Part shown: positions 34,982 to 51,292 of the stretch, one piece after another
Numbering within the stretch: position 1 is the stretch's first letter
Layout: every line of letters begins with the position of its first letter
Assembly (NCBI GenBank): GCA_002721105.1
Contig: PBJL01000015.1
Span: 19,580-83,579, forward strand
Reading direction: 5' to 3'
From: Acidiferrobacteraceae bacterium
Lineage (GTDB): Bacteria; Pseudomonadota; Gammaproteobacteria; Arenicellales; UBA868
DNA length: 64,000 nt
Position numbers and translations under genes: made by a program
The notes under the pieces: model-generated
What the model was told of the DNA's origin: nothing
The model's database searches: none
The model's input: the letters and a program-made list of their open reading frames with translations, nothing else

Positions 34982-35389
34982 TCAAATCTTTCCTTCAATA
35001 TGCGCTATTGAAGAAATTTCAACTAGAAATTGCGGCTTCACTAAATCGGCCCGAATACACCACCGCGCCGGTGGCTCCTTAGGGAAATACTCCTTATAGA
35101 CCTCATTCATTAAGTCGTAATGATTTAGATCCTTAATAAAAATCATGTTATATACGATATCGGACATTTGACCGCCAGATGCTTCGACCACGCTTCCGAT
35201 ACTTTCTAGTACGTGACGTGTCTGCATTGCGATATCTTCTTCTCCCACTATATTTCCGTTCATATCTATTGGTAATGTCCCAGAAATATAGACAACGTTA
35301 TCTGATTCGATCCCCGGAGAATAAGGGGCGAGTGGAGGTGCCGAACCGGACGGTATAATGACTCTTTTTGGCAAGATATGCGCTCCCAT
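34982..35389 (-). CDS. rutC: RutC-like enamine/imine deaminase (RidA superfamily)
   Basis: The 135 residues follow E. coli RutC (3-aminoacrylate deaminase) closely in pattern: KRVIIPSGSAPPLAPYSPG, NVVYISGTLPID, TRHVLESI and PPARWCI with the substrate-binding Arg109, then LVEISSIAHI. No other rut genes are nearby, so uracil catabolism is not implied. The gene is divergent from the pyridoxine-oxidase-like gene with 43 bases between the starts. A role in removing a reactive enamine from pyridine-ring breakdown is a plausible inference. Confidence 0.8.
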   Translation of the reverse strand: MGAHILPKRVIIPSGSAPPLAPYSPGIESDNVVYISGTLPIDMNGNIVGEEDIAMQTRHVLESIGSVVEASGGQMSDIVYNMIFIKDLNHYDLMNEVYKEYFPKEPPARWCIRADLVKPQFLVEISSIAHIEGKI

Positions 35390-35432: not shown

Positions 35433-36974
35433 ATGACTAACTTTCTCGTCATAGGCGGGGGAACAGCCGGATGCGTAATCGCACGCCGACTATCTGAAAA
35501 CAGTGCGGTAAGTGTGATTCTACTAGAAGCTGGATCTTCCTCATTTGACATGAAAGTCCACGATCCAAAACAGTGGCCATTCCTTGCCGGCTCCGTTATT
35601 GATTGGTCGTTTAACACGGTACCCCAGTTTCACACTAATTCTCGTATACACTCCTGGCCACGTGGTAAGGCACTTGGTGGTTCGAGCATCATCAATGCGA
35701 TGGCTCATGTTCGAGGTCATCGGAGTGATTTTGATCAGTGGGCGCAACAGGGATGTCATGGGTGGTCATATGCTGACCTGCTACCATATTTTATACGTTC
35801 AGAAACATCTAGTTATTCTGATTCTCCCTACCATGGGATTAACGGACCTCTGCACTTGATACAACCTACAGTTGCCCACCCTCTTACTGAATGCTATTTA
35901 GCGGCTGCCGAAAATATGGGATACCCTCCGATTGATGAACATAATGGCGCTGAAATGATCGGACCCACATTAAATACTCTAACGATTAGAAGAAACCAGC
36001 GGCTAAGCATTTCCGACGCTTATCTGAAACCAATTCTTCCACGAAAGAATCTTACAATTCTCGACAATTGTCTAGTTGACCGATTGCTTTTGGACAAACA
36101 CAATCGATGCATAGGGGCGTCATTCATAAAAGATGGTAGCGAAGAAAAAGTTCACGCCGACAACGGTATTGTTGTTTGCAGTGGTACTGTCGGTTCACCT
36201 CAGATATTGCTACGCTCAGGTATCGGGCCTGAGAAATTACTAAAACATATTGGAATACCGTGTCGTGTAAACCTAACTGGAGTCGGCAGCAACCTACATG
36301 ATCACTGTCTTGGTGCCGGAAACATATACTACTCAAAACGTACTGTCCCCGAAAGCGAGTACCAACATTCAGAGTCCTTACTTTATATAAATTTCAAAAC
36401 AAAAACATTACGACCTGATTTAGTGTTTGCGTGCGTAACATTACCTGTAATTACTGATCAATTCCTAGCGCCACCGATTGGCTCCGCATATACCTTGATG
36501 TATGGAGTTACATCACCAAAAAGTCGTGGCTCGTTAACTCTGCAATCTTCTAATCCTTATGTACCACCACTTATAGATCCAAACTACTTAAATCATGAGA
36601 ATGATCGAGCCTTATTCGTTGAGGCGTTAGACTTTGCTCGAGAGCTTGGAGGATCACCAATGTTTAGTGAATGGAGACAAAGAGAGTATCTACCCAATCA
36701 AACAGTTTCGTCTATTAAAGATAAGAGATTCTTTAATGAAATAGCCGCGTATACACACCATCATCCAGTCGGAACGTGCCAAATGGGAGTAGACGATAAC
36801 TCTGTTGTTTCGCCTGAACTTAATGTCTATGGTGTTGCAAACCTATTCGTTTCTGATGCATCCATAATCCCAAATATTACAACCGGACCCACCAATGCAG
36901 CAGTGGTCGCAATAGCGGAAAAATCGGCCGATCTCCTACTGAAACAGAGCCCTCTGAGCCCAATTCATTTGTAG
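35433..36974 (+). CDS. Pyridoxine 4-oxidase-like GMC flavoenzyme
   Basis: This 513-residue FAD-dependent GMC oxidoreductase is predicted to oxidise pyridoxine to pyridoxal. It opens with the dinucleotide motif VIGGGTAGCVIARRL (Gly8-Gly13) and has the GMC signature RGKALGGSSIINAMAHVRG. Several stretches recall the M. loti pyridoxine 4-oxidase (Mll6785) more than choline dehydrogenase: EMIGPTLNTLTIR, LGAGNIYYSKRTVPESEYQHSES, GSAYTLMYGVTSPKSRG and THHHPVGTCQMG. An Asn (GPTNAAVVAIAE) occupies the second catalytic region. Neighbouring genes for pyridoxal and pyridoxamine breakdown support the assignment. That comparison is from memory. Confidence 0.78.
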   Translation: MTNFLVIGGGTAGCVIARRLSENSAVSVILLEAGSSSFDMKVHDPKQWPFLAGSVIDWSFNTVPQFHTNSRIHSWPRGKALGGSSIINAMAHVRGHRSDFDQWAQQGCHGWSYADLLPYFIRSETSSYSDSPYHGINGPLHLIQPTVAHPLTECYLAAAENMGYPPIDEHNGAEMIGPTLNTLTIRRNQRLSISDAYLKPILPRKNLTILDNCLVDRLLLDKHNRCIGASFIKDGSEEKVHADNGIVVCSGTVGSPQILLRSGIGPEKLLKHIGIPCRVNLTGVGSNLHDHCLGAGNIYYSKRTVPESEYQHSESLLYINFKTKTLRPDLVFACVTLPVITDQFLAPPIGSAYTLMYGVTSPKSRGSLTLQSSNPYVPPLIDPNYLNHENDRALFVEALDFARELGGSPMFSEWRQREYLPNQTVSSIKDKRFFNEIAAYTHHHPVGTCQMGVDDNSVVSPELNVYGVANLFVSDASIIPNITTGPTNAAVVAIAEKSADLLLKQSPLSPIHL

Positions 36975-37022
36975 CAAAGGTTATAATAATCAATAAACCA
37001 CTATTTAAAGAGTTTTGATTTA

Positions 37023-37460
37023 GTGAGACTTGCTCGAATACTTCAAGTCTGTCTAATTTTTGGATACGCCGGAATGACAACCCACGCATCTAAGGACAAC
37101 CTTGTTGTAAATAATTTCCTTCACCGAACTATTTTCATATCGAATGATCATACTACCGAAGATGTGCGCTGTCAGTTCATCCTGGCGCATTTCGTGACTT
37201 ATGATTTTGTCAAATTTTCACAAAATGATACTCTGTCTATTCCCGTCTACCTAAGCAATCCTGATGGTACAATCTTCTATTTCCACGCGGGAAATTATAT
37301 GGCAATCGAAGATCTTCTTTGTGGATTTGATGCACATTGGTCGCTGACTCGACAAGAATTATCTTTAATCCCATTTATATCCTCAATAGATGAATCTTTA
37401 CATTTCATCTGCGGAGGAGATCAGATGTTATCTTGCATCCGAAAATCCATTGAATATTGA
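37023..37460 (+). CDS. Hypothetical exported 145-residue protein
   Basis: The gene starts with GTG at 37023. The first ~22 residues (MRLARILQVCLIFGYAGMTTHA) look like a Sec signal peptide ending at an AxA-like THA-S site. The remainder (~120 residues) has several aromatic and Cys residues (C51, C106, C130, C138 by rough count) that could form disulfides, and I recognise no domain. It lies 48 bases after the pyridoxine-oxidase-like gene and 46 bases before a second GMC gene, on the same strand, so it is probably part of the same unit. A periplasmic helper or maturation protein for a membrane-associated dehydrogenase is conceivable. Confidence 0.6.
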   Translation: MRLARILQVCLIFGYAGMTTHASKDNLVVNNFLHRTIFISNDHTTEDVRCQFILAHFVTYDFVKFSQNDTLSIPVYLSNPDGTIFYFHAGNYMAIEDLLCGFDAHWSLTRQELSLIPFISSIDESLHFICGGDQMLSCIRKSIEY

Positions 37461-37506
37461 TCAACGGTAGATCGAATCAGTTTAGAAACATCGTAGGAAA
37501 GATACT

Positions 37507-39141
37507 ATGACTAAAGGACTGGTTTATAACTATATTATAGTTGGAGCTGGGTCAGCGGGCTGCACTCTTGCTGCCCGACTTACCGAAAATCCCAACTGTC
37601 GTGTATTACTCCTTGAAGCTGGTGGCTGGGATCGTGATCCACTGATTCATATTCCGTTAACGTGGGCAAAGATGCTTCTAGAACAATCACATGACTGGGG
37701 ATATTTCTGCAAGCCGGAGCCTACTGTAAACAATCGTGAGATTGAGTGCGCTCGTGGAAAAGTGATTGGAGGCTCCTCCTCAGTGAACGCAATGGCCTAC
37801 GTAAGAGGAAACCGTGGCGACTATAATCGCTGGGCTGACTCTGGTTTATCAAGCTGGTCCTATAAACATGTGTTGCCATACTTCAAAAAACTAGAGACTT
37901 GGGAGAGCTCTGATCCGTTTCGTGGTTCTTCCGGACCTATTAATGTTCAACATTGTCGGTATGAAGACCCTTTAGTTGAAGCTTATGGCGAAGCAGGAAT
38001 TGCTGGAGGCTTTGGCTGGACTGATGACTATAATGGCAATATTCAAGAAGGGTTTTCACGCTTACAAATGACTATAAAAAATGGGCGGCGTTGTAGCGCA
38101 GCGAATGCTTATCTCCGACCATCGTTGCAAAGGAAAAACTTAGTAGTTAAGGTTAATTCATTAACAACCAAAGTTGCTTTTGAGAATAATAGGGCAATCG
38201 GAGTTCACTTTACCCAAAATAATCAGTCATTCTTTGCCCATGCTGATCAAGAAGTAATCTTGTGCGCCGGAGTAATTAACACGCCACAACTACTAATGCT
38301 TTCAGGCATTGGTGATTCTAAAAAGCTTAGAAAAATTGGAATAGAATCAAAACTTCACCTTGAAGGGGTCGGCATGAACCTTCAAGATCAAATGTCGGCT
38401 ATCATTTTGTACAAAAGGAAAGAAAACGGACCTTTTCATCATAATATGAGGGTAGATCGCATCGTATCTTCGCTCGCTAAGACTTATTTCCTTGGAACAG
38501 GATTTGCCTCAGATGTGCCGGGAGGAATGACCGCTTTCCTGCGTACTGACAGTAGCTACGACTTGCCAAATATTCAATTACTTCTTACTGCAGCTCCCCT
38601 TGGGGCCTGGCCATACCTTCGACCGTTCAAAAAACCCTTTAATGATGGTTTTGTCTCGCGTGTGGTTCTGCTTAACCCGGAAAGCCGCGGTGAGGTTGAG
38701 GTTGTGTCCTCAAATATCAAAGTGAAACCGATGATAAAACAGAATTTTCTGTCAACCCCTAGAGACTGGACAACTCTACGAGATGGACTGCGAATTGCTC
38801 GCGACATTGCGACCCAACCATGTATGGAACAGTTTATCGACAAAGAAATTCTGCCTGGCATATCCAAAACATCAAACGAAGAATTAAGCAACCATATTGC
38901 TGAAACTGCAATTACCTTGCATCATCCACTTGGAACCTGCCGAATGGGATCGCAGAACGATCTGACAGCCGTAGTGGACTCAAAGCTGAGAGTAATTGGC
39001 GCAGAAGGACTTCGCGTTGTTGACGGCTCGGTCATGCCGGATCTTGTTCGAGGAAATATAAACGGTCCTATTATTATGATCGCTGAAAAAGCAGCTGACT
39101 ATATTAGAAATAAAGAATCCCTGCCGCCAGAAGAGAACTGA
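37507..39141 (+). CDS. GMC flavoprotein dehydrogenase, candidate 4-pyridoxate dehydrogenase
   Basis: This 544-residue FAD-dependent GMC enzyme (about 59 kDa) has the Rossmann motif [15 protein letters not shown], the signature ARGKVIGGSSSVNAMAYVRG, the second signature GVINTPQLLMLSGIG and the active site ITLHHPLGTCRMG with Asn in NINGPIIMIAEKAAD. By fold and size it fits choline-dehydrogenase-like enzymes and also M. loti 4-pyridoxic acid dehydrogenase, reported as a membrane-bound GMC enzyme of about this mass. The neighbouring genes that make 4-pyridoxate and use its product are the reason for preferring that role. A generic alcohol dehydrogenase role remains possible. It is convergent with the pyridoxal dehydrogenase gene. 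Confidence 0.7.
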   Translation: MTKGLVYNYIIVGAGSAGCTLAARLTENPNCRVLLLEAGGWDRDPLIHIPLTWAKMLLEQSHDWGYFCKPEPTVNNREIECARGKVIGGSSSVNAMAYVRGNRGDYNRWADSGLSSWSYKHVLPYFKKLETWESSDPFRGSSGPINVQHCRYEDPLVEAYGEAGIAGGFGWTDDYNGNIQEGFSRLQMTIKNGRRCSAANAYLRPSLQRKNLVVKVNSLTTKVAFENNRAIGVHFTQNNQSFFAHADQEVILCAGVINTPQLLMLSGIGDSKKLRKIGIESKLHLEGVGMNLQDQMSAIILYKRKENGPFHHNMRVDRIVSSLAKTYFLGTGFASDVPGGMTAFLRTDSSYDLPNIQLLLTAAPLGAWPYLRPFKKPFNDGFVSRVVLLNPESRGEVEVVSSNIKVKPMIKQNFLSTPRDWTTLRDGLRIARDIATQPCMEQFIDKEILPGISKTSNEELSNHIAETAITLHHPLGTCRMGSQNDLTAVVDSKLRVIGAEGLRVVDGSVMPDLVRGNINGPIIMIAEKAADYIRNKESLPPEEN

Positions 39142-39197
39142 ATGATTAAGTCTTACATCATATTAATATGTCTCTACTAACCAATCTTCTGTGAAAG

Positions 39198-39938
39198 TTA
39201 CCAACGAACCATGCCAGCATCGACATTTAAGATCTGACCAGTGATTCGATGTGCTTCAGGCGATGCTAGGAATACGACCGCCGGTGCAATATCAGAAGGC
39301 TGATTGTAACCCTTGATAGGCTGAAGCATTTCAACAAATTCGAATGCTTCCTTATGCGGCGTATCTTGCACACCCTCTGTATTTGTTAAACCTGGAGTGA
39401 CTCCATTGACAGTGATCTTATAGGCGCCCAATTCCGTTGCAAGGGCGCGAGTTAAGCCAAAAACGCCTCCTTTTGCGGAAACATAGGCTGCCATATTTGG
39501 CGTACCTGCAAAAATGGTGTTTGAGATTATATTAACGATCCGTCCGCAATCCTGTTCCCGCATCATGTCAGAGGATGATCGGCACATTAGGAACGTACCA
39601 TCGAGATTCACCCGCATGATCTGTCTCCAATGCTCGAAATCAACATCGTCCCATGAGATAAAAGGAACAATAGCAGCATTGTTTACCAGCACGTCTAACT
39701 TTCCGTATTCCTTAGCTATTCTTGCATGTAGAGCTCTCACCTGATCAGTGTCACCAATGTCACATTTTATACCTATGGACTGATTGCCACATTCATCAGC
39801 GGTCTGGGTCGCGCCATCGATGTTCTGATCAACTGAAATAACAGACGCGCCTTCACTCCCAAACTGGAGAGCTACTGCTTTGCCAATTCCTCGCGCTGAC
39901 CCTGTGACGATTACTACTTGATCTTTGAAACGTGTCAT
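39198..39938 (-). CDS. Pyridoxal 4-dehydrogenase-like short-chain dehydrogenase
   Basis: This 246-residue NAD-dependent SDR is predicted to oxidise pyridoxal (as hemiacetal) to 4-pyridoxolactone. It has the TGSARGIGKAVAL cofactor loop, NNAAIVPFISWDDVDFEHW, and the Ser-Tyr-Lys centre within SNTIFAGTPNMAAYVSAKGG. These blocks, including NNA(A/S)IVPF(I/V)(S/A)WDDVD, AGTPNMAAYV and the C-terminal TGQILNVDAGMVRW, recall M. loti pyridoxal 4-dehydrogenase. It is the last gene of the operon that includes the BMP transporter, pyridoxolactonase and pyridoxamine-pyruvate aminotransferase genes. Confidence 0.85.
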   Translation of the reverse strand: MTRFKDQVVIVTGSARGIGKAVALQFGSEGASVISVDQNIDGATQTADECGNQSIGIKCDIGDTDQVRALHARIAKEYGKLDVLVNNAAIVPFISWDDVDFEHWRQIMRVNLDGTFLMCRSSSDMMREQDCGRIVNIISNTIFAGTPNMAAYVSAKGGVFGLTRALATELGAYKITVNGVTPGLTNTEGVQDTPHKEAFEFVEMLQPIKGYNQPSDIAPAVVFLASPEAHRITGQILNVDAGMVRW

Positions 39939-39989
39939 GTCTTCCTCCTTGCTATTGTATTTCTGACCTTCCCTTACATATTTTCGCTA

Positions 39990-41171
39990 CTATGACAAAT
40001 CTGTAATAACTGCTGTTGCTGCCTCTATTCCTGCAGCGGTGTTGGTCTTATAACCAAGATAGTTAAGCGCGCCCCCCAGGGCCGTAATTGCAACCAAGGC
40101 ATAAATGGGCTGCGCCACCATCCCCATATGACCAATTCTAAGCAGCTTTCCCATGGTCTCATTGCGACCACTTGAAAATGTCACACCGAAAATATTACGA
40201 GCTGTCATTCTAATATCTTCATCTTTAATGCCGTCAGGAATGGCAACCGCAGTCGTAGTAGGTGAAGCTATTGCCTCTGACGTTGCCCATAGCTTGCACC
40301 CCATCGCTTTGATACCAGCACGACATGCATCCGCAGTTTTTTTGTGACGTTCCCAAACTTTTTCTGGCTGCTCTTCTAAATAATTATCAATGGCTGCATC
40401 TAAGCCATTAATTTCTGCAACTGAGGGTGTAAATGGGAAAGGCTGATCATGCTGCCATGCGTTTCGCCAGTCGGTAAGGCTTAAAATCGATGCAAATGGA
40501 GCGGCGGAGTTTTGCCCAATGTGATCCCATGCCGCATCACTCACTGACATTAGAGTAAGGCCAGGGGCACCTCCAAGGCATTTCGAGGGACTGGTAATAA
40601 AAATATCGGCCGAACAATCTTTTGGATGAATATCCATCCCGCCCCAAGATGAAACAGCGTCAACTAACAATAACGCACCATTAGCTTTCACGATCTCTCC
40701 AATCTCCTTCATCGGGTTTAAGGTGCCTGATGGTGTATCGTGATGAACAGCCGAGACAATTCGAATATCTTTTCTGGCTTCAAATGCTGCCTCAACCTGA
40801 TCTGGACTAATGGACTCATTGTATGGCACTTCTATCTCTACAAGTTCTTTATTGTATCGTGAGGCCCAATATCCAAATCCCTTTCCATAAACTCCTGAGG
40901 CGAGGTTCAAAACGACATCATTTTTCGATATTAGGGAGGCTGCCGCTGCCTCTATTCCAGGAGCAGGTTCACAATGAAGTATTAAAGCTGGTTCTTCTAT
41001 TTTTAATGCCTTTGACACTTTCCGATTCACAAGTTCGTAAAATTCTTGAAAATAGGGATCAAAATCGTACTGAACGGTGGTCGACATAGCTCGTAGGACT
41101 CGGGGGTATACCCCCACAGGCCCTGCTGACAATGTTATGGCTGGCTCACATTGTGTTTGCTTGGTCTTCAT
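39990..41171 (-). CDS. ppaT: Pyridoxamine-pyruvate aminotransferase
   Basis: This class V PLP-fold enzyme is predicted to convert pyridoxamine plus pyruvate to pyridoxal plus alanine. With the ATG at 41171 (GGAG 8 bases before it) it has 393 residues. The Schiff-base lysine in SPSKCLGGAPG falls at 197, and the arginines in FSSGRNETMGKLLRIGHMG at 336 and 345, the same numbers I recall for the M. loti enzyme, together with long shared blocks (VVLNLASGVYGKGFGYWA, HHDTPSGT, PFPFTPSV, IASPTTTAV). Alanine-glyoxylate aminotransferase is the closest alternative, but the neighbouring pyridoxal-oxidising genes argue against it. Confidence 0.9.
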   Translation of the reverse strand: MKTKQTQCEPAITLSAGPVGVYPRVLRAMSTTVQYDFDPYFQEFYELVNRKVSKALKIEEPALILHCEPAPGIEAAAASLISKNDVVLNLASGVYGKGFGYWASRYNKELVEIEVPYNESISPDQVEAAFEARKDIRIVSAVHHDTPSGTLNPMKEIGEIVKANGALLLVDAVSSWGGMDIHPKDCSADIFITSPSKCLGGAPGLTLMSVSDAAWDHIGQNSAAPFASILSLTDWRNAWQHDQPFPFTPSVAEINGLDAAIDNYLEEQPEKVWERHKKTADACRAGIKAMGCKLWATSEAIASPTTTAVAIPDGIKDEDIRMTARNIFGVTFSSGRNETMGKLLRIGHMGMVAQPIYALVAITALGGALNYLGYKTNTAAGIEAATAVITDLS

Positions 41172-41244
41172 AATCAAATCTCCATCCTAGTAGCGCAACA
41201 TGACACCATCTCACCCGAAATATAAACACGCAACAATTTCATGC

Positions 41245-42057
41245 TCATGAATAATACCCCGGCGCTTTAACATAATCCGGAAATGATTCATGATCATGAG
41301 AGTAAAACAATTCAGCATCATATTTTTCCGCTAGGCCTTTCAATTTCTTTAATGATTTAACACTTGCAATTGGGTCAAGGTGGAAACTTGATATACACAT
41401 CATTTCCATACTTTTCTGGCTATAACATGCATCCGCTGTAAACAACATTGGTTTTCGATTTTTTAGCTCAACCATTAGGCTGTAGTGTCCCGCAGTATGG
41501 CCTGGTGTCTCAAACAGCCAAATTCCTTTGGCGATTTCCTGGTCACCACTGACTGTTTCAAAAGTGGGTGTAAAAATATCAAGCTCTGGATTTAAGGCTG
41601 TATTCAATTTTTCTGCCCTTTCTTCAGCCACCTTAGAAGAAAAAGTTAAATCCGAATAACCTAACATCTCGAAAGGTTGCGGGCTTGCGCATACTTCCAA
41701 TTCTTTTTCGTGACAAATAGTACACGCGTTGGTTAAGTGCTTGTTTCCACCACAATGATCAAAGTGATAGTGAGAGTTAATCACATAGTTAATATCCGAC
41801 GGCTTCAAGTTAATTTTTTCTAGCTGTCCTGGTATTGTTTGCTCCTTGGTTTGCAGCGGTTTCTCAAAGGGTAATACTTTTTGGACATGGTCATAATCGT
41901 AGCCGGTATCAAAAATGTAACGTCCGTCTTCATGCTCTATTAGAACTGAATATGTTGGAAACCGAACTTCTCCGCCAGGACCACGATTCCAAAACACATG
42001 ATATCCATCAATTACAAGTGTGCCGCCATCCAATATATAAACTTTTGTGTCAGTCAT
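41245..42057 (-). CDS. 4-pyridoxolactonase (metallo-beta-lactamase fold)
   Basis: This 270-residue zinc hydrolase is predicted to open 4-pyridoxolactone to 4-pyridoxate. The metal motif NSHYHFDHCGG places His96, His98, Asp100 and His101 as in M. loti pyridoxolactonase, with further ligands in ETPGHTAGHYS and TADACY. The N terminus, TDTKVYILDGGTLVIDGYHVFWNRGPGGEVRFP in pieces, also agrees with that protein. A GGGGG ribosome-binding site precedes the ATG. It sits 62 bases after the transporter permease gene and 73 bases before the aminotransferase gene, all on the minus strand. Confidence 0.9.
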   Translation of the reverse strand: MTDTKVYILDGGTLVIDGYHVFWNRGPGGEVRFPTYSVLIEHEDGRYIFDTGYDYDHVQKVLPFEKPLQTKEQTIPGQLEKINLKPSDINYVINSHYHFDHCGGNKHLTNACTICHEKELEVCASPQPFEMLGYSDLTFSSKVAEERAEKLNTALNPELDIFTPTFETVSGDQEIAKGIWLFETPGHTAGHYSLMVELKNRKPMLFTADACYSQKSMEMMCISSFHLDPIASVKSLKKLKGLAEKYDAELFYSHDHESFPDYVKAPGYYS

Positions 42058-42118
42058 TAATCCCCCTAGATATCCAAATTAGTAATATCAAATAATTTAT
42101 TCTGCGTATAATCAAATT

Positions 42119-43054
42119 TCACCGCTCTCCCCGCACGTAAGGCAATGTTAAGGCTGCTGGCAAGTAACTATTTCTTCCAAGCAATATCAACATCAAAATT
42201 ACCATAGTGAAGGGCAGCATTTGGACAACGTCTGTTGGTATGTTAAATCCCGCAACTTGTAGCGCAGTCGTTAAGGACAGACTGACGCCAAAAAGCCCAG
42301 CACCATAAAGAACCCACGTTGGATTTCCTCGTGCTAACATTGCTAAAACAATTGCAATAAATCCAGCTCCGCCAGTCATGAATGGCACAAACAAGCCCGC
42401 GCCAACATTAGCTAGAAATGCGCCACCTATTCCTGCCAAAAACCCAGTAGCGATAACAGCCCAAGTTCGAGTGGAAACCACACTCACTCCTGTCACATCT
42501 AATGCAGCTGGAACATCACCGGCAGCCTGAAGGTTAAGCCCTATATAGGTTTTCTTGAAAATCCAGATTAGCAAAAACACCAAGACAATTGAAAAATAAA
42601 CGATGGGATGTCTTTGAAAAAATGCCTCGCCTAAAAAAGGAATCGCCCCAGCAAATGGTATTACCATGGTCTCTACTGAGGATAAACGCGGATATGTCCG
42701 ACTAAACTGGAAATGATGAAGAAGCGCTGTCAATCCATCCGCTCCAAGAGTTAGAGCTATACCAATTACAATTTGATTCAGGCCAAGCCTTACACAAAAT
42801 AACACCATTAGGATTGCTACCGAGATCCCACCTAAACCACCTAACAAAAACCCTAACCAGAAAGAATTCAAATAATATGCTCCGCAGAACCCAGTATATG
42901 CGCCCACTAACATCATCCCTTCAAGGCCAATATTCAAAACTCCAGCTTTCTCAGATATTTGCTCTCCAATTCCTGCCAATAATAGAGGGACACCAGCGGT
43001 AACAGCTCCAAAGAGTAGCGCTGTGATAAATGTTTCTGTGAGTAAAGCGGACAC
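42119..43054 (-). CDS. BMP-type ABC transporter permease 2
   Basis: This 311-residue inner-membrane permease belongs to the BPD_transp_2 family (YufQ/NupQ type), with about 8-9 hydrophobic helices and the conserved GVLNIGLEGMMLVGAYTGF and GLNLQAAGDVPAALDVTGVSV blocks. It starts with GTG three bases after the first permease ends. Together with the preceding permease, ATPase and substrate-binding protein it completes an importer. The downstream genes are B6-catabolic enzymes, which suggests the cargo is a B6 vitamer. Confidence 0.9.
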   Translation of the reverse strand: MSALLTETFITALLFGAVTAGVPLLLAGIGEQISEKAGVLNIGLEGMMLVGAYTGFCGAYYLNSFWLGFLLGGLGGISVAILMVLFCVRLGLNQIVIGIALTLGADGLTALLHHFQFSRTYPRLSSVETMVIPFAGAIPFLGEAFFQRHPIVYFSIVLVFLLIWIFKKTYIGLNLQAAGDVPAALDVTGVSVVSTRTWAVIATGFLAGIGGAFLANVGAGLFVPFMTGGAGFIAIVLAMLARGNPTWVLYGAGLFGVSLSLTTALQVAGFNIPTDVVQMLPFTMVILMLILLGRNSYLPAALTLPYVRGER

Positions 43055-43057
43055 GAT

Positions 43058-44119
43058 TTATGTTTTCCTTGTTTGGCGCCATCGGTGATCAAGATATTCA
43101 ACTATAGCTAAAAACATAAGTAGTAACCCAACTAATACCAGCACAAAAAAAGTGGGGACACCAAGGCGTCGAGATGCGCTCTCTCCGCCAATCATTAACA
43201 CCGCGAAAAAAAGAACAAACGCAATAGTCCCAAAACCGTGAAAGCGCGCTAAGAAAACAAGAGGCACTACCAAAAGCCCATAAGCAGGATTCCAGTCAGC
43301 TCGCACTGTTCCCCACACACCTAATATCTCCACAGCCCCCCCCATGCCAGCAAGCGCCGCACTTAAACCAAAAGCGAAATAGGTCAGAATCCGAACGTTG
43401 AGCCCTGCATGCACGGCAGCTTTAGGATTAGCCCCTACGACTTGTAGCCGCAATCCGAAAGCAGTACGTGTCATTAGAAAATGGACTCCTAGAACCGCTA
43501 CAACCCCAAATAAAACACCTTGGTGAATTATTGTGTCAAAAAGGCGTGGTAACCGCTCTTCGACTGGCAGTGTTACGGTTTGAGGGACCGTTGTAGATGG
43601 ATCATTAAATGGTATCTTTACCAGGACATTAGCTAGGCTAATACCAAGAAAGGTCATCATAAGTGTTGTAATTATCTCATTAATGCCATGACTAGCCTTA
43701 AGGTAAGCTGGAATCACCGACCAAGCGCCTCCAACAACTCCTGCTATCACAAACGCGCCCACGAACATAGTCCAGTTCGGAATATATTGATTTAAGCTTG
43801 GAGCGACCGCTGCGACAATTACTGCCGCTAACAAAAATTGACCATCAACACCAAGATTCCAAATACCCGCGCGAAATGCAACGATTAAACCGGCGGCCAC
43901 AAACATCAAAGGTGCTGTCCTAACTAGCGTGGCTTGAAGTCCGCTCCAACTAAGGAGTCCTCGCTTAACAACATACCAATAATAAGAGAATGGATCTTTA
44001 CCTAACAGGATTAATATCAATCCGCCGGCAACAAGCGCTAATAGAATCGGCGCCACAATCCTCAACGTAGGCAATGCCAGATCTGATATGATTCTATTTT
44101 TGTTAGCAACGATACTCAT
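43058..44119 (-). CDS. BMP-type ABC transporter permease 1
   Basis: This 353-residue membrane protein is of the YufP/NupP type. It has IWNLGVDGQFLLAAVIVAA (the family's NLGxxGQ motif), SHGINEIITTLMMTFLGISL and RLQVVGANPKAAVHAGLNV, which are coupling-helix landmarks of sugar/nucleoside-type permeases. Its start overlaps the ATPase gene's stop by 4 bases (ATGA type), so the two are translationally coupled. The C-terminal helix is followed by a basic tail (HRWRQTRKT). Confidence 0.9.
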   Translation of the reverse strand: MSIVANKNRIISDLALPTLRIVAPILLALVAGGLILILLGKDPFSYYWYVVKRGLLSWSGLQATLVRTAPLMFVAAGLIVAFRAGIWNLGVDGQFLLAAVIVAAVAPSLNQYIPNWTMFVGAFVIAGVVGGAWSVIPAYLKASHGINEIITTLMMTFLGISLANVLVKIPFNDPSTTVPQTVTLPVEERLPRLFDTIIHQGVLFGVVAVLGVHFLMTRTAFGLRLQVVGANPKAAVHAGLNVRILTYFAFGLSAALAGMGGAVEILGVWGTVRADWNPAYGLLVVPLVFLARFHGFGTIAFVLFFAVLMIGGESASRRLGVPTFFVLVLVGLLLMFLAIVEYLDHRWRQTRKT

Positions 44120-45723
44120 ATTGAAGTCGCTCCGGTCATGAGTGATCCAATGTAATTCTCAGAACCAGGCTCAGATTTAACAATTCCAATCATTTCACCC
44201 TGATACATAACGCCTATTTGAGTAGCTAACTCAATCAACTCATCAAGTTCTGTTGAAATTAACACGGTGGTCACTCCTTTTTCAGCTTCTTCTCGAATGC
44301 GGTCCCGCGCTAACTGAATATTCTGTAAATCCAGCCCGTAAGTCGGTTTATTGAAAACAATCATCTCAGGATTTTCTGAAATTTCCCGCGCAAACAATGC
44401 TTTTTGAATATTGCCTCCCGATAAACGACCAATAGGCGTTCGTTCGCTTGGTGTTCGAATATCGAATGTTGTGATCTGAGATCTAGCAAACTCAAAAATT
44501 TTTCTCCACAATGTTAAACTGCGGTTCCAATATGGTTTCTCACCAATTCTTTTAATCACAAGATTTGTAGCAATTGGATGTGCTGATACAATACCTTCTC
44601 CCACACGATCATCAGTAAGATATCGAATACCAAGTTTTCGCCGTTTATAGACACCTAGTCTCGCAATGGACTCTTCATTGAATCTGATATCACCTTGTGA
44701 GATATTTCTCTGGCCTGCCAAAACTTCCGCTAGATGCTTCTGACCGTTTCCGTCAATCCCAGCGATACCAAAGATCTCCCCTTTTTTCACCTCAAATGAA
44801 ACATTACGCAGCGCACATTCTCCGCTGACAGCTCTTGTTGATACGTCTCGAACAACCAGCTTAACTGTTTGCTCTCCAGTCACGGGCGGCCCTTTCTTCA
44901 AATTAGCGCCATCCAATGTTTTGCCATCATCACTCACGCTATCAAATTGCACTTGTTGTTCAAACATCAAACGTATAATTTCATTGATCGTTCCATCTTC
45001 ACCCATCTGTTGTCGACGTTCAGGGTCTATTTCCCCTACTACACGACCATTTCGCAAAATTGAAATGCGATCACAGAGATCATAGGCCTCTCTTAGCTTA
45101 TGCGTCACAAAGACAACCGCAACGCCATTATTTCGAAGTCGTCGAATAACTCCACTTAATTCAATAACACCCTGAGGTGTCAGCATTGAAGTTGGCTCAT
45201 CTAATATCAAGACTTGCTCACCACCTCTCCATAGGGCTCGCATAATTTCTACTTGTTGCCGCTGACCTAACGAAAGATTGCCTATTAATGAATTACCATT
45301 GATGTCGACCGCTAATAATTCGCAAAGCTCATTGAAGCGATATAAAGCTGAGTCCTGATCTAATCGTTTTCGCCACGAACCGCCAAGCATCAAGTTTTCA
45401 ATTACCGACATGGTTGGAGCCAACAAAACATGTTGAAAAACAGTTCCAATTCCCGCCACAAGACTATCACGCGGTGTATTAAGCTGTTGTTCAGCTCCAT
45501 TAACAATAATGGATCCTTTGTCGGGTTGGTGTAGTCCCGCCAATATCGAAATAAGTGTTGATTTGCCTGCGCCATTCTCGCCGAGAAGAGCGTGAATTTC
45601 GCTAGCCCGAAAATCTAATGAGATGTTTTCATTGGCGATCACGCCTGGAAAATATTTTGAGACGCCCCGCAATTTAATTGCCGGATTCCCAAGGTCGTCC
45701 TTATCGATGCTAGGTAATGCCAC
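44116..45723 (-). CDS. BMP-type ABC transporter ATPase (two fused nucleotide-binding domains)
   Basis: This 535-residue protein contains two ABC domains, as in YufO/NupO and simple-sugar importers. The N-terminal half has Walker A GENGAGKST, signature LSLGQRQQVEI and Walker B VLILDEPTS. The C-terminal half has the degenerate Walker A region GIDGNGQKHLAE, signature LSGGNIQKALFA and FNKPTYGLDLQN. Its gene follows that of the substrate-binding protein after an 87-base spacer that contains a strong stem-loop. Confidence 0.94.
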   Translation of the reverse strand: MALPSIDKDDLGNPAIKLRGVSKYFPGVIANENISLDFRASEIHALLGENGAGKSTLISILAGLHQPDKGSIIVNGAEQQLNTPRDSLVAGIGTVFQHVLLAPTMSVIENLMLGGSWRKRLDQDSALYRFNELCELLAVDINGNSLIGNLSLGQRQQVEIMRALWRGGEQVLILDEPTSMLTPQGVIELSGVIRRLRNNGVAVVFVTHKLREAYDLCDRISILRNGRVVGEIDPERRQQMGEDGTINEIIRLMFEQQVQFDSVSDDGKTLDGANLKKGPPVTGEQTVKLVVRDVSTRAVSGECALRNVSFEVKKGEIFGIAGIDGNGQKHLAEVLAGQRNISQGDIRFNEESIARLGVYKRRKLGIRYLTDDRVGEGIVSAHPIATNLVIKRIGEKPYWNRSLTLWRKIFEFARSQITTFDIRTPSERTPIGRLSGGNIQKALFAREISENPEMIVFNKPTYGLDLQNIQLARDRIREEAEKGVTTVLISTELDELIELATQIGVMYQGEMIGIVKSEPGSENYIGSLMTGATSI

Positions 45724-45755
45724 CGTGTAGGCTCTATTTTTCTACGAGATACAAA

Positions 45756-45784
45756 GAGTGACGGTCAATCAAAAACCGTCACTC
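45756..45784 (-). promoter_or_regulatory. Intergenic stem-loop between the substrate-binding protein gene and the ABC ATPase gene
   Basis: A perfect 10-base-pair inverted repeat (GAGTGACGGT / ACCGTCACTC) separated by 9 bases lies 26 bases after the binding-protein stop codon in the direction of transcription. The A-rich loop reads as a T-run on the transcript. Such hairpins commonly sit after highly expressed binding-protein genes. They stabilise that part of the message or partly terminate transcription, so that less transporter core is made. No long U-tract follows at once, so partial termination or mRNA stabilisation is more likely than full termination. Confidence 0.7.
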
Positions 45785-45810
45785 CTGCATCATTGATCTA
45801 GATAGAGCTC

Positions 45811-46869
45811 TTAGCCTTCGTTTATATCAACCGATGTCATAAGGGCTCGAACTTCTTGCGCATCAGAGATGTTAGGTACGTTAACCTCCCCTGAAATGAT
45901 TTTGCTTCGAAGATCCATCAATTCACTCCATATGTCAGTCGGTATGTGCGGACTTTGGAGTAATCGTACCGAATCATTTTCCAAGCCAATCTGATAACCC
46001 TGGGTTCCAAAAATTCCTGTCATTAAATCTTGAACCATAGCGTCATAGACTGGAACCATATCCCAAAGAACTGACGATAGCAGATGGCCTTTATCTATCT
46101 CTGTTTTGTCGCCAATGACATCAATAAACCAAACTTTGCCGCCGTCGACTGCTTTTGTAGTTTCTACTGCCTGAATCATTCCAAAAGATGATCCATTACC
46201 CTGACCAAAGATGACATCGGCACCAGCTGAAATTACTGATTCAGTTACTCTTCGGCCACCGGCTGCATCACCATAGGCGGCAGGACCAATAACGGCATAA
46301 ATAATCTTGGCAGAACCAGAGGCAGCTTTCACGCCCATTGCAAAAGCAGCAGACTGGGAGTTCCATGAGGGTGGTTCACCAGATACTACAATACCCACAC
46401 TGCCAGTCCTTGTCATGTGCGCAGCCAAAACACCAGCCATATACGCGCCATCATGCCCGCTCAATGTATAGTCGGTAACCAATCCTGGAACAAGCCCTTG
46501 CGGCGTATCAACAATCGCAACTGGAACTCCAGTTTCCTGAGCTATTTCAGGTGCTGCAGTGTTATAGCCACTTGCATGGGCGATCATTAGACTCGCGCCC
46601 TCCTCCGCTAATTCTCTGAGAGTTGGTCGAACATCGCCATAACCTAAACCTTCTGCAGGCATAAATAGTAAGCCGTATTTTTCTGCGACAGTTCTAGCCG
46701 CATCAACGCCCTGCTGATTCCAACCATAATCTGTCCCCTGTTCTGGTACCAAAACAGCAATCGCTTTTAGTTCCCCAGCTAGCACGGCATTAGATGCTCC
46801 AAATACAACGAAAATGCCCAGAATTGATGCCAAAACCTTAGAAACAAAAGAATCAAATGTGTGCTTCAT
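45811..46869 (-). CDS. BMP-family substrate-binding protein of ABC transporter
   Basis: The ATG at 46869, preceded by a perfect AAGGAGG, gives 352 residues. A Sec signal peptide (hydrophobic LASILGIFVVFGASNAV, cleavage near AVLA-GE) directs it to the periplasm, and there is no lipobox cysteine. The mature part has the PnrA/BMP pattern: VLVPEQGTDYGWNQQGVDAA, HDGAYMAGVLAAHMTRTGSVG, DVIFGQGNGSSFGMIQA. Known BMP proteins bind nucleosides or, in some bacteria, purines or lipids. The operon context suggests a pyridoxine-type ligand, which has not been shown. Confidence 0.9.
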   Translation of the reverse strand: MKHTFDSFVSKVLASILGIFVVFGASNAVLAGELKAIAVLVPEQGTDYGWNQQGVDAARTVAEKYGLLFMPAEGLGYGDVRPTLRELAEEGASLMIAHASGYNTAAPEIAQETGVPVAIVDTPQGLVPGLVTDYTLSGHDGAYMAGVLAAHMTRTGSVGIVVSGEPPSWNSQSAAFAMGVKAASGSAKIIYAVIGPAAYGDAAGGRRVTESVISAGADVIFGQGNGSSFGMIQAVETTKAVDGGKVWFIDVIGDKTEIDKGHLLSSVLWDMVPVYDAMVQDLMTGIFGTQGYQIGLENDSVRLLQSPHIPTDIWSELMDLRSKIISGEVNVPNISDAQEVRALMTSVDINEG

Positions 46870-46931
46870 ATTAGTTTCCTCCTTCACGTAGTTACTTCCA
46901 GTATTGTTGAGTCAGCTCTACGCGAGCCACT

Positions 46932-46970
46932 GACTGTACGTCTTTACAAAGTGCCACTAGAGACTGTACG
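46932..46970. repeat. 30-base-spaced direct repeat upstream of the transporter operon (candidate operator)
   Basis: The block GACTGTACG occurs twice, at 46932-46940 and 46962-46970. Each copy is preceded by a CCACT (gagCCACTGACTGTACG and gtgCCACTAGAGACTGTACG), so the repeat units are about 15-17 bases and spaced 30 bases apart, close to three helical turns. They lie between the divergent transporter/B6 operon and the LysR-type gene, where activator sites are expected. Function is inferred from position only. Confidence 0.45.
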
Positions 46971-47022
46971 CTGAATACCCCTAAAGGGACAAGTGGACTT
47001 ATTTAAAAGACAATGACAGTGT

Positions 47023-47036
47023 ATTCGGGAACGAAT
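47023..47036. promoter_or_regulatory. Palindrome ATTCGggaaCGAAT, candidate LysR-type binding site
   Basis: A perfect 5-base inverted repeat with a 4-base spacer (ATTCG/CGAAT) lies 49 bases upstream of the LysR-type start codon. LysR regulators typically bind a dyad with a T-N11-A core near their own promoter, and this site has the right size and location for autoregulation and divergent control. A short dyad like this can arise by chance, hence the low confidence. Confidence 0.35.
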
Positions 47037-47084
47037 TGATAGATAATTACAGAAACCCGAATTCAACATTCAGGATATCGAACA

Positions 47085-47975
47085 ATGGACCTCCACGCCG
47101 ATAAAATGGCCCTTTTTGCCGAAGTTGCAAGAGCAGGAAGCTTTACTGCCGCCGCAATGAAGCTTGCCTTGCCAAAGTCCACAGTCAGCGAACGAATTAC
47201 CAGTTTAGAGAAGTACCTCGATGTTCGATTGTTAAATCGCTCGACACGAAGTCTAAGTCTCACGTGGGCAGGGCAAAAATATCTCGAAAAGTGCGAAGCC
47301 TTGCTGGATTTACTAAACGAAGCTGATGACACAATCGAGCAAATAAAAGCTGATGAAAATGGGGAGCTAAGAATTACAACTGCTGGCCGATTCAGCGAGA
47401 TGGCGTTACCTGATCTACTGGTCAATTTTCAAAAACTATACCCCAAAGTAACATTCGATATTGTTGTTGAAGATTCCCCTCTTGATCTGATTAAAAATCG
47501 CTTTGATATTGCTTTCCGGACCGGGGAACTAAAAGACTCGTCTCTGGTAAGTTATCAATTGTTGGACAATCAAAAGTTCTTAGTCGCAAGCGACGATTAC
47601 CTTCTCCATAGTCCGATAGAAACCTTAGACGATCTATCAAGCGCACATGCCATTATTCACCCCGGCTACCCGGTTTGGAAAATGTTTCAGGGAACACAAA
47701 CTAAGACTGTTAGGCCAAAAGCATCAATCAAAGTAAATAACATGATTTTTGCAAAAAATCTCTGTGAAAAAGGTGGCGGAATAACGGTGTTGGCAGAGGG
47801 TCTAATCAACTCGAATCAAGAAAAATCTCAATTGCAACGTGTGCTACCGAATTGGAAAATTGAATCAAATGCTCTATATATCGTATATCCCAGTCGAAAG
47901 CACAACACACCCGCGTTTAAGGCGTTCACAGCGTATGTAATTGAACATTACTCCCAATTTTATCGTGCACGCTAA
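47085..47975 (+). CDS. LysR-family transcriptional regulator
   Basis: This 296-residue LTTR has an N-terminal winged helix-turn-helix (residues about 5-64, FAEVARAGSFTAAAMKLALPKSTVSERITSLEKYL in pieces) and a C-terminal effector-binding domain with periplasmic-binding-protein fold. The LTWAGQKYLEKC stretch links the two. It is divergent from the BMP transporter/B6 operon and lies between the two halves of the catabolic island, so it is the best local candidate regulator, with a B6 compound as possible effector. The CrgA/DsdC-like subgroup is likely, but no specific orthologue is recognised. Confidence 0.88.
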   Translation: MDLHADKMALFAEVARAGSFTAAAMKLALPKSTVSERITSLEKYLDVRLLNRSTRSLSLTWAGQKYLEKCEALLDLLNEADDTIEQIKADENGELRITTAGRFSEMALPDLLVNFQKLYPKVTFDIVVEDSPLDLIKNRFDIAFRTGELKDSSLVSYQLLDNQKFLVASDDYLLHSPIETLDDLSSAHAIIHPGYPVWKMFQGTQTKTVRPKASIKVNNMIFAKNLCEKGGGITVLAEGLINSNQEKSQLQRVLPNWKIESNALYIVYPSRKHNTPAFKAFTAYVIEHYSQFYRAR

Positions 47976-48066
47976 ATTTTGTTTGGCAATCCCCAATGTG
48001 CCTCCCATAACAAGGGATAGACGACTTAAGAGCTCATCATGATCCGCGCCACAACTGTCTTTCCTG

Positions 48067-48999
48067 TCAAGCCTTTCTATCCGTCGAGCTATCTAGAGCT
48101 TTTCGCACAGCAACCAATGCCCGCGCCCTATCGGTACGCAGTGTTGCAACTTGATCCTTTGTATACGAAAATACGCCACTCTCGCTTTTCATGCCTAATT
48201 TTCCTGCTTTGGTCTTGTCTTTAATTAGACTGCTCACATCATTTCTTTGACAAAGCTCTTTATTCAAATATGTTCCCACTGCCTGATAGATATCCAGTCC
48301 AGCCGTATCTAGCAAGGCCATCGGCCCGATTACGGATAACTTATAGCCGATCCCCCAAGAAACGCACGTATCTAAGTCAATAGGCTCAATAACGCCCTGC
48401 TCAACAAGATCAATACATTCTCGCAGCAACGCATAAAGAACACGATTTTCTACAAATCCGGGAACATCTTTTTTTACAAATACTGGGATTAAACCAAGAT
48501 CTCGGATCAATTTCATCAACCAATCGACAATATTCATATCGGTTTCTTTGCCGGCAATGACCTCAATCATTGGAATGATGTGGGGCGGGTTAGACCAATG
48601 CATGCCAATAAAACGATCAGGATGATTCGAGCCATCCTGTAGCTTAGAAATAGGAATTCCGGAAGAGTCACTCGCAAGAACGCACTTTGCTGTAACTAGC
48701 TTCTCCAATTCCTTAAAAATGGCGAGCTTAACATCAATATCTTCAGGAGCATTCTCTATTACCAGATCAGCCCCTGCCACACAATCTTCGAGGTTGGGTG
48801 TTAATCGTACGGGAGCAATTGAACGGTCTGGCGTACCAAGCGCATCAAGAACTTTAAAGGCGATGTCAATATTCTTCTGTCCAGCCTCTAGCACTTCTGA
48901 ATTGACATCAAATGCTGAAACCTCAATTCCACCTCTTGCTAGCGTTGCTGTGATGCCCGGCCCCATGGTGCCAAGTCCTATCACGGCTGCCTTGGTCAT
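48067..48999 (-). CDS. 5-formyl-3-hydroxy-2-methylpyridine-4-carboxylate 5-dehydrogenase
   Basis: This 310-residue NAD-dependent enzyme has the 3-hydroxyacyl-CoA dehydrogenase fold. It has the NAD motif VIGLGTMGPG, SDSSGIPISKL, the catalytic-His block GMHWSNPPHIIPMIEVIAG (His134), VKKDVPGFVENRVLYALLRE and DTCVSWGIGYKL. Those blocks, particularly HWSNPPHIIPMIEVIAG and DLDTCVSWGIGYK, are as I recall from the M. loti enzyme (Mlr6793), which oxidises the 5-aldehyde to 3-hydroxy-2-methylpyridine-4,5-dicarboxylate. It lacks the CoA context of fatty-acid enzymes. An AGGAG site precedes the ATG. It is the last gene of a five-gene operon. Confidence 0.85.
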   Translation of the reverse strand: MTKAAVIGLGTMGPGITATLARGGIEVSAFDVNSEVLEAGQKNIDIAFKVLDALGTPDRSIAPVRLTPNLEDCVAGADLVIENAPEDIDVKLAIFKELEKLVTAKCVLASDSSGIPISKLQDGSNHPDRFIGMHWSNPPHIIPMIEVIAGKETDMNIVDWLMKLIRDLGLIPVFVKKDVPGFVENRVLYALLRECIDLVEQGVIEPIDLDTCVSWGIGYKLSVIGPMALLDTAGLDIYQAVGTYLNKELCQRNDVSSLIKDKTKAGKLGMKSESGVFSYTKDQVATLRTDRARALVAVRKALDSSTDRKA

Positions 49000-49034
49000 A
49001 ATTTTTTGCTCCTAGTTTTTTGAGGCATTGAAAG

Positions 49035-49634
49035 CTATGCAGCTACGACCTTTTGATAGGCTGTTCGTTCGGAAATTAAATCGTGCCATCGACGAGTACT
49101 TGCTAGCTCTGGAAGGTTAATTGGAAATCCTAGACATCGATTACAAATGGGGCCTAAGGCAATATCAGCCATGGAAAAAAAATCTCCGCCGATCCATTTG
49201 TTTCTCTCCAAGTGCTTATCCAATATCGATAGCTGATCAATCAGTGCGCTCCCCATGACATCTATTTCGGTACGATCTTCCTCTGCTTTCTTGGACTCTT
49301 TAAATACATTCAGATAATGGGAATTTAGGGATGCTAAAAGCCAATCCATCCAAGTTTCACATTTTGCTCGAGATGCCAAATCTCCAGGAATTAAATCAGA
49401 GTTCTGCTTGAGACAAAGATAACGCAGGATAGTGTTTGATTCCCAAATAATGTACTCACCGTCAATTAAAGTGGGCACCTTGCCCGTAGGATTCATCTGT
49501 AGATAAGCAGCATCCCCAGTGTTGCCAAATTGCCGACCATAATCTTCTCTGATGTAGTCAACTCCGAGCTCTTCAAGTAGCCATAGAACTTTTTGTACGT
49601 TACCAGATGTCTTACGTCCTAATAGTCTCAACAT
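49035..49634 (-). CDS. Glutathione S-transferase family protein
   Basis: This 199-residue protein has a thioredoxin-fold N domain (MLRLLGRKTSGNVQKVLWLLEELG, then PTGKVPTLIDGEYIIWESNTILRYL) and an all-helical C domain with DFFSMADIALGP, the normal GST layout. The catalytic residue is probably a Ser near residue 10 (KTSGNV). In an operon with a cupin dioxygenase it could isomerise or reduce a ring-opening product, as maleylpyruvate isomerases do after gentisate cleavage, but sequence alone does not prove this. Confidence 0.85.
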   Translation of the reverse strand: MLRLLGRKTSGNVQKVLWLLEELGVDYIREDYGRQFGNTGDAAYLQMNPTGKVPTLIDGEYIIWESNTILRYLCLKQNSDLIPGDLASRAKCETWMDWLLASLNSHYLNVFKESKKAEEDRTEIDVMGSALIDQLSILDKHLERNKWIGGDFFSMADIALGPICNRCLGFPINLPELASTRRWHDLISERTAYQKVVAA

Positions 49635-49673
49635 AATTTCCCCTTTTCGAAATCTTTTAAATCAACATAATGA

Positions 49674-50081
49674 TTACTTACTTATTGGTTTGTATGCAAT
49701 TGCATCCATTTCAATTTTCGTATTAATAACGGCTCGTGCCTCTACCGTAGTTCGCGCTAACAAGCCCTCCGGAAAATATTCTCCAAATGCACGGTTATAA
49801 CGCCCAAAATCCCGAGCATCCTCAAGGAATACTGTGATCTTTACAATGTCTTCCAAGTCTGCCCCATCTGCCTTTAAGACACGCCTAACAGACTCGAGAG
49901 TCCACCTGCATTGCTCCTCGATAGTCCCATCACACATTTTTCCGTTCTCGTCTTTTGCGACTTGCCCAGAAACAAATAGAAAATCTCCCGCGCGTACCCC
50001 AGGATGAAAAGGTAGATTTGGATTTTTTTCGCCAATTGGATGGATTCCAGTACCTATTTTGGCCTCATTTTTGTCTTGCAC
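49674..50081 (-). CDS. RidA-family enamine/imine deaminase
   Basis: This 135-residue RidA/YjgF-fold protein starts with GTG after a strong GGGAGG. It has the family blocks LPFHPGVRAGDFLFVSGQVA and VFLEDARDFGRYNRAFGEYFPEG, and the substrate-binding arginine in LLARTTVEA (Arg110), with the trailing IEMDAIAYK. Such proteins hydrolyse enamines or imines to ketones plus ammonia. In this operon it could deaminate the enamine expected from oxidative opening of the pyridine ring. Confidence 0.88.
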   Translation of the reverse strand: MQDKNEAKIGTGIHPIGEKNPNLPFHPGVRAGDFLFVSGQVAKDENGKMCDGTIEEQCRWTLESVRRVLKADGADLEDIVKITVFLEDARDFGRYNRAFGEYFPEGLLARTTVEARAVINTKIEMDAIAYKPISK

Positions 50082-50114
50082 GACTATATCCTCCCGAAGA
50101 TTCAGTAGAGACTG

Positions 50115-51242: not shown

Positions 51243-51292
51243 TTTTTCTCAATTTCTCATTATCCTTTGCAATATTTAAGAAGGGCCAATGT

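Follow-up and report, generated by a model that had tools for sequence, protein, structure and literature searches.

A vitamin B6 degradation locus in a gammaproteobacterial contig and a proposed cupin-type route for its lower half

The DNA analysed here (the window) is a 64,000 nt stretch of contig PBJL01000015.1 from assembly GCA_002721105.1, and it carries a vitamin B6 degradation locus. Genes for the upper part of the pathway are followed by a cassette of four genes at positions 49035–52435, which encode a cupin, an LVIVD-repeat propeller, a RidA-family protein and a GST-family protein. The initial annotation had read the stretch as a B6 catabolic locus with 3-hydroxy-2-methylpyridine-4,5-dicarboxylate (HMPDdc) as its end point, and this reading is well supported. 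It missed the cassette and a four-gene B6 ABC transporter (42119–46887), and the lower pathway was not addressed. Loci and genomes used for comparison have L and G numbers, respectively. Loci L019 and L117 are on Tara Red Sea contigs of the Acidiferrobacteraceae metagenome-assembled genome (MAG) RS826, the sister genome G017. The genes of the upper route and of the cassette are as follows.

35433..36974, plus strand: pyridoxine 4-oxidase (PNOX), a GMC flavoenzyme (solved-structure match 4ha6; 61% to the L019 copy)
37507..39141, plus strand: candidate 4-pyridoxate dehydrogenase (PADH), GMC family (58% to the M. loti CJ3sym GMC protein encoded beside FHMPCDH)
39198..39938, minus strand: pyridoxal 4-dehydrogenase (PLDH), SDR family (NF047923 above cut-off; 3ndr)
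39990..41177, minus strand: pyridoxamine-pyruvate aminotransferase (PPAT) (NF046070 above cut-off; 2z9u)
41245..42057, minus strand: 4-pyridoxolactonase (NF047925 above cut-off; 3aj3)
48067..48999, minus strand: 5-formyl-3-hydroxy-2-methylpyridine-4-carboxylate 5-dehydrogenase (FHMPCDH) (NF042925 as top model; 4om8)
49035..49634, minus strand: GST-family protein, proposed cis/trans isomerase or accessory protein (conserved beside FHMPCDH)
49674..50081, minus strand: RidA-family imine/enamine hydrolase, proposed to act on the imine formed by ring opening (family; locus comparison)
50115..51242, minus strand: LVIVD-repeat beta-propeller, proposed to hydrolyse the ring-opened intermediate as a metalloenzyme (PF08309; predicted fold nearest 5hrm)
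51293..52435, minus strand: bicupin resembling gentisate and salicylate dioxygenases, proposed HMPDdc ring-cleaving dioxygenase (family, residues, genomics)

The five B6 genes named initially are real open reading frames at these positions, and their products score far above generic relatives. PNOX has pyridoxine 4-oxidase (4ha6) as its best solved match, with 405 bits vs 279 for the next different enzyme; NCBIfam lists no PNOX model for it, and identity to PNOX of M. loti CJ3sym is 40%. PLDH reaches 380.8 bits with its NCBIfam equivalog model (cut-off 325) and 289 bits with 3ndr (next 166). The corresponding values for PPAT are 614.8 bits (cut-off 600) and 525 bits with 2z9u (next 125), a structure that we take to be M. 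loti PPAT and that carries the depositors' label aspartate aminotransferase. PPAT residues Lys199, Arg338 and Arg347 are invariant in a 9-sequence alignment that includes the window; they are the residues first given as 197, 336 and 345, with an offset of +2. 4-Pyridoxolactonase has 474.2 bits with its equivalog model (cut-off 325) and 373 bits with 3aj3, the next match being an acyl-homoserine lactone (AHL) lactonase at 103, and His96, His98, Asp100 and His101 are all in place. A best match to alanine-glyoxylate aminotransferase or AHL lactonase was looked for and did not occur. FHMPCDH is just short of the NF042925 cut-off (476.7 bits vs 500) and has 380 bits with 4om8 vs 136 for the next match. 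It is present in 11 of 12 genomes searched, the exception being G028.

The further GMC gene stands as a PADH candidate, as the initial annotation had it, on its 58% identity to the GMC gene that adjoins FHMPCDH in M. loti CJ3sym; another window GMC protein reaches 40%. That M. loti gene is presumably PADH, a name that reference titles back. In NCBIfam the window candidate matches choline dehydrogenase only, under the cut-off, and the M. loti gene is likewise named choline dehydrogenase.

The cassette is operon-like. It is on the same strand as FHMPCDH and directly upstream of it, and the gaps in the ORF table, counted upstream from FHMPCDH, are 35 bp (GST), 39 bp (RidA), 33 bp (LVIVD propeller) and 50 bp (cupin). 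The order cupin-LVIVD-RidA-GST-FHMPCDH is also present in L117 from the sister gammaproteobacterium, in Dongia and other Rhodospirillales, and in M. loti DSM 2626 and M. ciceri WSM1271.

By fold and sequence the cupin belongs to the bicupin family of gentisate 1,2-dioxygenase (GDO) and salicylate dioxygenase (SDO) (3bu7, 2phd, 2d40), with 26–30% identity to solved members. It is far under the NCBIfam cut-offs for gentisate dioxygenase (192.8 bits vs 442.1) and 5-aminosalicylate dioxygenase (202.7 vs 650). Cupin residues were mapped by alignment onto SDO, and conservation was read from two sets, 120 listed homologues of 1760 cupin matches and 31 locus copies, several of which are one gene fetched twice. 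The Fe ligands His119, His121 and His160 of SDO correspond to cupin His115, His117 and His156, and SDO Arg83, Arg127 and His162 correspond to Arg79, Arg123 and His158; all six are invariant in 120/120 and 31/31 sequences. Five other positions are substituted. Gln108, Asp174, Trp172 and Trp104 of SDO are Arg104, Ser170, Asn168 and Tyr100 in the cupin, invariant in both sets, and Gly106 is Ala102 in 118/120 listed homologues and 29/31 locus copies. Passages in PMC11264262 and PMC10306065 report that Gln108, Asp174, Trp172 and Arg127 of SDO touch the substrate and are conserved in GDOs, that Asp174 and Trp104 matter for gentisate binding, and that this class of enzyme cleaves between the OH-bearing carbon and the neighboring carboxylate-bearing carbon. 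The catalytic residues are kept and the gentisate contacts are uniformly replaced, and therefore the cupin is read from its residues as an enzyme that retains dioxygenase chemistry with an altered substrate specificity.

The LVIVD protein has eleven invariant His in 13 sequences. Its best fold match, from the predicted structure, and its best sequence match are both 5hrm, the phosphotriesterase of Sphingobium TCM1, a seven-bladed propeller with a binuclear metal center. The two proteins are 25% identical, and no phosphotriester is expected in this pathway. The LVIVD protein is proposed to be a putative propeller hydrolase of the binuclear-metal type.

The distribution of the cassette was surveyed in GTDB genomes, in the best 80 of 203 PPAT loci. 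Selection was by resemblance to PPAT of the gamma and Rhodospirillales types (alignment A1), and therefore the proportions are no census. Queries for the M. loti lower route were taken from L114 (M. loti CJ3sym). Solved structure 3alj confirms the MHPCO query (851 bits, vs 80 for the next different enzyme). By family and position, we take the aldolase-II-family gene of L114 to be HMPDdc decarboxylase (HMPDdC) and its alpha/beta hydrolase gene to be the amidohydrolase (AAMSH); NCBIfam names none of the three queries.

The cupin (at least 58% identity) is found in 51 of the 80 PPAT genomes and MHPCO (at least 88%) in 22. No genome has both, and 7 have neither. The chance of zero overlap is 6e-14, without correction for descent. 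Among the first 46 genomes the cupin is present in 38, MHPCO in 7 and neither in one (G028); among the remaining 34, the cupin is present in 13 (one partial), MHPCO in 15 and neither in 6. HMPDdC and AAMSH counts cover the first 46 and 50 genomes, respectively (the 50 being these 46 and four drawn later). HMPDdC (at least 77%) is in exactly the 7 MHPCO genomes, and the 38 cupin genomes have no close copy. Among the 50, AAMSH (at least 76%) is limited to those 7 genomes, and nothing else matches at 1e-30. LVIVD (at least 66%) is in exactly the 41 cupin genomes of the 50; it is downstream of the cupin and co-directional in 41/41, with a gap of at most 125 bp in 39/41. In the first 46 genomes the remaining MHPCO matches do not exceed 50% and the remaining HMPDdC matches do not exceed 43%; genome G027 has such MHPCO matches at 42% and 37%. 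The MHPCO genomes G027, G872, G874 and G882 have distant cupins (34–39%), which were counted as other gentisate-type enzymes.

The exchange is also seen within Mesorhizobium. M. loti DSM 2626 and M. ciceri WSM1271 have the order PADH-cupin-LVIVD-RidA-GST-FHMPCDH, and in the same place M. loti CJ3sym has AAMSH-MHPCO-two genes (PF06684, PF01161)-HMPDdC-PADH-FHMPCDH. The two additional genes (AA_synth and PEBP-like, respectively) are at L114:3545–4957, between the decarboxylase candidate and MHPCO. The window has no tblastn match at 1e-3 to HMPDdC, MHPCO or AAMSH, and the sister genome G017 has none at the thresholds used. Replacement of the M. loti lower-route cassette by the cupin cassette is well supported by these genomic comparisons.

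An even draw of 385 Alphaproteobacteria, centre genome included, contains 8 PPAT genomes, and these include all 6 genomes that carry the cupin (Fisher test 3e-10, centre genome left out). G028 and G733 have PPAT without the cupin. Scoring was limited to the few best PPAT candidates of each genome; PPAT could be undercounted in this draw, and the presence of PPAT in all 6 cupin genomes stands regardless. The locus is rare among the Gammaproteobacteria of the collection, since the cupin was found only in G017 in a search of 321 genomes of the class, and PPAT only in G017 among 109 genomes of its order.

The locus thus described probably imports B6, converts it by the known upper route to HMPDdc and degrades the latter by a second lower route that begins with direct cleavage by the cupin. 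The substrate, the bond cleaved, the products, the order of steps and the roles of RidA, GST and LVIVD are proposed from family chemistry. PNOX, PPAT, PLDH, pyridoxolactonase, PADH and FHMPCDH would lead to HMPDdc. The M. loti route first removes the 4-COOH; no close HMPDdC is present in the 38 cupin genomes searched, and the carboxylate adjacent to the OH would stay in place for cleavage of the GDO/SDO type. The 3-OH and 4-COOH would act as a salicylate-like pair, both bound by the cupin Fe(II) as salicylate is bound by SDO. The cupin would then cleave C3-C4 directly, replacing the decarboxylase, MHPCO and the amidohydrolase. The expected product is an N-linked pyruvate ketimine of aminomethylene-oxaloacetate, an obvious substrate for a RidA-type protein, and RidA-aided hydrolysis of the imine would give pyruvate and an enamine. 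Isomerisation by GST and metal-dependent hydrolysis by the LVIVD protein, via aminomethylene- and formyl-oxaloacetate, would yield ammonia, oxaloacetate and formate, with a carbon balance of 8 = 3 + 4 + 1.

In the PPAT tree (midpoint root) the window PPAT pairs with L019 (100/99), and this pair joins a Rhodospirillales MAG (100/99), inside the alphaproteobacterial PPATs. This placement suggests a transfer into Gammaproteobacteria. The MHPCO label requires 4 changes on the tree, at least 2 of them forced by well-supported branches, and it sits among cupin-type rows. It is held with moderate confidence that the cupin opens HMPDdc and that the LVIVD metallohydrolase, RidA and GST yield pyruvate, oxaloacetate, formate and ammonia, that this route is more widespread than that of M. 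loti, which would be a later substitution in Rhizobiales, and that marine Gammaproteobacteria acquired it, together with the upper genes, from alphaproteobacteria. On the same tree, PPAT of L027 (Mycobacterium sp. KBS0706) falls inside Inquilinus, which suggests a mislabelled or contaminated record.

Another explanation is that the cupin opens a different B6 intermediate, either a ring decarboxylated by an unrelated enzyme or an earlier 4-carboxylated compound such as 4-pyridoxate or FHMPC. The two latter compounds likewise bear a neighboring 3-OH and 4-COOH. However, FHMPCDH adjoins the cupin in loci that span both, which points to the dicarboxylate, and a decarboxylated ring has no carboxylate next to the OH. 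The invariant Arg104 in place of Gln108 fits a second carboxylate without proving it. Cleavage of another intermediate is unlikely on these grounds, and it is still less probable that an ordinary M. loti lower route is encoded elsewhere in the host, with the cassette degrading some other aromatic compound. The host sequence available here is the window, the cupin family is named after gentisate, and four cupin genomes have distant MHPCO relatives at 39–50% (G016 50%, a fragment with a stop; G021 39%; G046 45%; G759 41–43%). These points are set against the absence of any genome with both the cupin and a close MHPCO, the lack of all three M. loti genes in the sister genome at the thresholds used, the low cupin scores for gentisate and 5-aminosalicylate dioxygenase, and a cassette that directly adjoins FHMPCDH and, within Mesorhizobium, alternates with the M. 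loti cassette. That the locus serves detoxification or salvage, with B6 oxidised and no more and a regulatory or protective role for the cassette, is very improbable. RidA and GST are common in detoxification, and the 7 PPAT genomes with neither lower cassette have a PPAT without FHMPCDH or lactonase in the flanks covered; the dedicated transporter and the intact Fe site of the ring-cleaving dioxygenase speak against this reading.

Several observations weigh against direct cupin cleavage as the lower route, in addition to the distant MHPCO relatives. Distant HMPDdC relatives are present in the cupin genomes G029 (43%) and G044 (38%), absence of the MHPCO route is established for the window and G017 only, and the surveyed genomes are related, of which the exclusion statistic takes no account. 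The cupin structure model is only moderate (pLDDT 73). According to passages in PMC11264262 and PMC10306065 known GDOs also differ from one another at the Trp104 position, and the change there is therefore not telling. The function of the LVIVD protein is proposed from its fold and from weak sequence similarity to 5hrm (4.6e-12, 25% identity). RidA and GST are absent beside the cupin in L010, L067 and L144 and therefore may be auxiliary. The cassette is apart from PPAT in G634 (about 28 kb away) and in G759 (on another contig).

The upper steps through FHMPCDH are those of B6 degradation pathway I of M. loti and Pseudomonas sp. MA-1, with orthologous PNOX, PPAT, PLDH, lactonase and PADH candidate, and M. 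loti CJ3sym also carries B6 transporter genes. Unlike pathway I, the window and the sister genome have the cupin, LVIVD, RidA and GST instead of HMPDdC, MHPCO and AAMSH. The cupin shares fold, family, the three Fe His and the equivalents of Arg83, Arg127 and His162 with the gentisate, salicylate and 5-aminosalicylate 1,2-dioxygenases, but differs in its low identity, its five substituted positions and its B6 gene context. A gentisate catabolic operon combines the dioxygenase with a GST-type maleylpyruvate isomerase and a hydrolase. The proposed roles in the cassette likewise place a ring-cleaving cupin, a GST and a hydrolase side by side, but RidA and the LVIVD propeller stand in for fumarylpyruvate hydrolase and the genes are contiguous with B6 genes. 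The passages on B6 degradation in PMC3538738 describe two routes and mention no cupin-type enzyme, and among the papers listed by open-access searches on B6 and LVIVD (subscription journals being outside their scope) no report of a cupin-type B6 route was seen. Within that scope, cupin-type ring opening does not seem to have been described before. If the 51 of 80 sampled PPAT genomes do open the ring by a GDO-like cupin, the lower half of the pathway needs a second version. There would then be a substrate for a large group of proteins that currently bear the name gentisate 1,2-dioxygenase, a function for part of the LVIVD family and a marker for marine B6 consumption.

The host, an uncultured bacterium, looks gammaproteobacterial, as initially proposed. 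The gene order is of gammaproteobacterial type. Among 120 listed SecD relatives, the closest one named below phylum is from an Acidiferrobacteraceae MAG (72%), and relatives at 73% are named only as Pseudomonadota. The locus is collinear with RS826 over the cupin cassette, LysR, transporter, lactonase, PPAT, PLDH, GMC, the small 145-aa protein, PNOX and RutC. The host had also been put forward as the novelty, and this part is rejected, because the pathway was first elucidated in Pseudomonas and named MAG relatives came first. PMC3538738 gives Pseudomonas sp. MA-1 as the strain in which route 1 was discovered. PPAT relatives already in databases are from MAGs named Arenicellales (with PPAT named there), Candidatus Thioglobus and Acidiferrobacteraceae. 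The novelty lies in the lower pathway rather than in the host.

The transporter, the regulator and two small genes complete the locus.

34982..35389, minus strand: RutC/RidA-like imine deaminase, divergent from PNOX (same position in L019, 70%)
37023..37460, plus strand: 145-aa protein, no Pfam match (homologue adjoins PNOX or PPAT in several loci)
42119..43054, minus strand: B6 ABC transporter permease 1 (NF047928 above cut-off)
43058..44119, minus strand: B6 ABC transporter permease 2 (NF047929 above cut-off)
44116..45723, minus strand: B6 ABC transporter ATPase (NF047930 above cut-off)
45811..46887, minus strand: B6 ABC transporter substrate-binding protein, BMP family (NF047927 above cut-off)
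47085..47975, plus strand: LysR-type regulator, between and divergent from two gene blocks (same position in L019, 78%)

All four transporter subunits exceed the cut-offs of NCBIfam models that are themselves named putative. The N-terminus of the 145-aa protein resembles a signal peptide by eye. A promoter scan of 46700–53200 gives 6 sites vs 13.3 in shuffles and is uninformative.

Some PPAT loci have other surroundings. In the Mesorhizobium loci L035, L038, L049 and L082, PPAT is alone among the genes compared, with no FHMPCDH or lactonase in the flanks covered and neither lower cassette found, and it may have a different role. The Rhizobium plasmid loci L001 and L002 (NZ_CP048425.1 and CP021372.1) have PPAT, PNOX and a B6 transporter beside a 2,5-dihydroxypyridine dioxygenase and an HpaB-like monooxygenase, together with a flavin reductase, two amidases and MmgE/PrpD. 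This gene set is possibly yet another lower B6 route. Such an amidase-based route (NicX, HpaB) is not in the window, and among the loci compared NicX and HpaB have no match at 1e-20 outside L001 and L002.

GMC3 (53117–54811), a 156-aa gene, a CoA-transferase, MTTB and GMC4 were considered as further pathway genes. Their membership is not supported, because in L117, a 19-kb stretch of the sister genome, the cupin has none of them beside it. The 156-aa gene has no Pfam match and is beside a GMC gene (52637–54811), an arrangement that presumably resembles a gluconate-2-dehydrogenase-type small subunit pair. Positions 54957–57784 encode a CoA-transferase family III protein and then an MttB-family methyltransferase. 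An Rfam scan found only tRNA, 5S rRNA and the end of a large subunit (LSU) rRNA gene; the 5S rRNA and the 3' end of the LSU rRNA gene are at the window edge (63689–64000). An amidase of the PRK07487 type is at 32777–34186, and a 42% relative of it is near PPAT and PNOX in L143.

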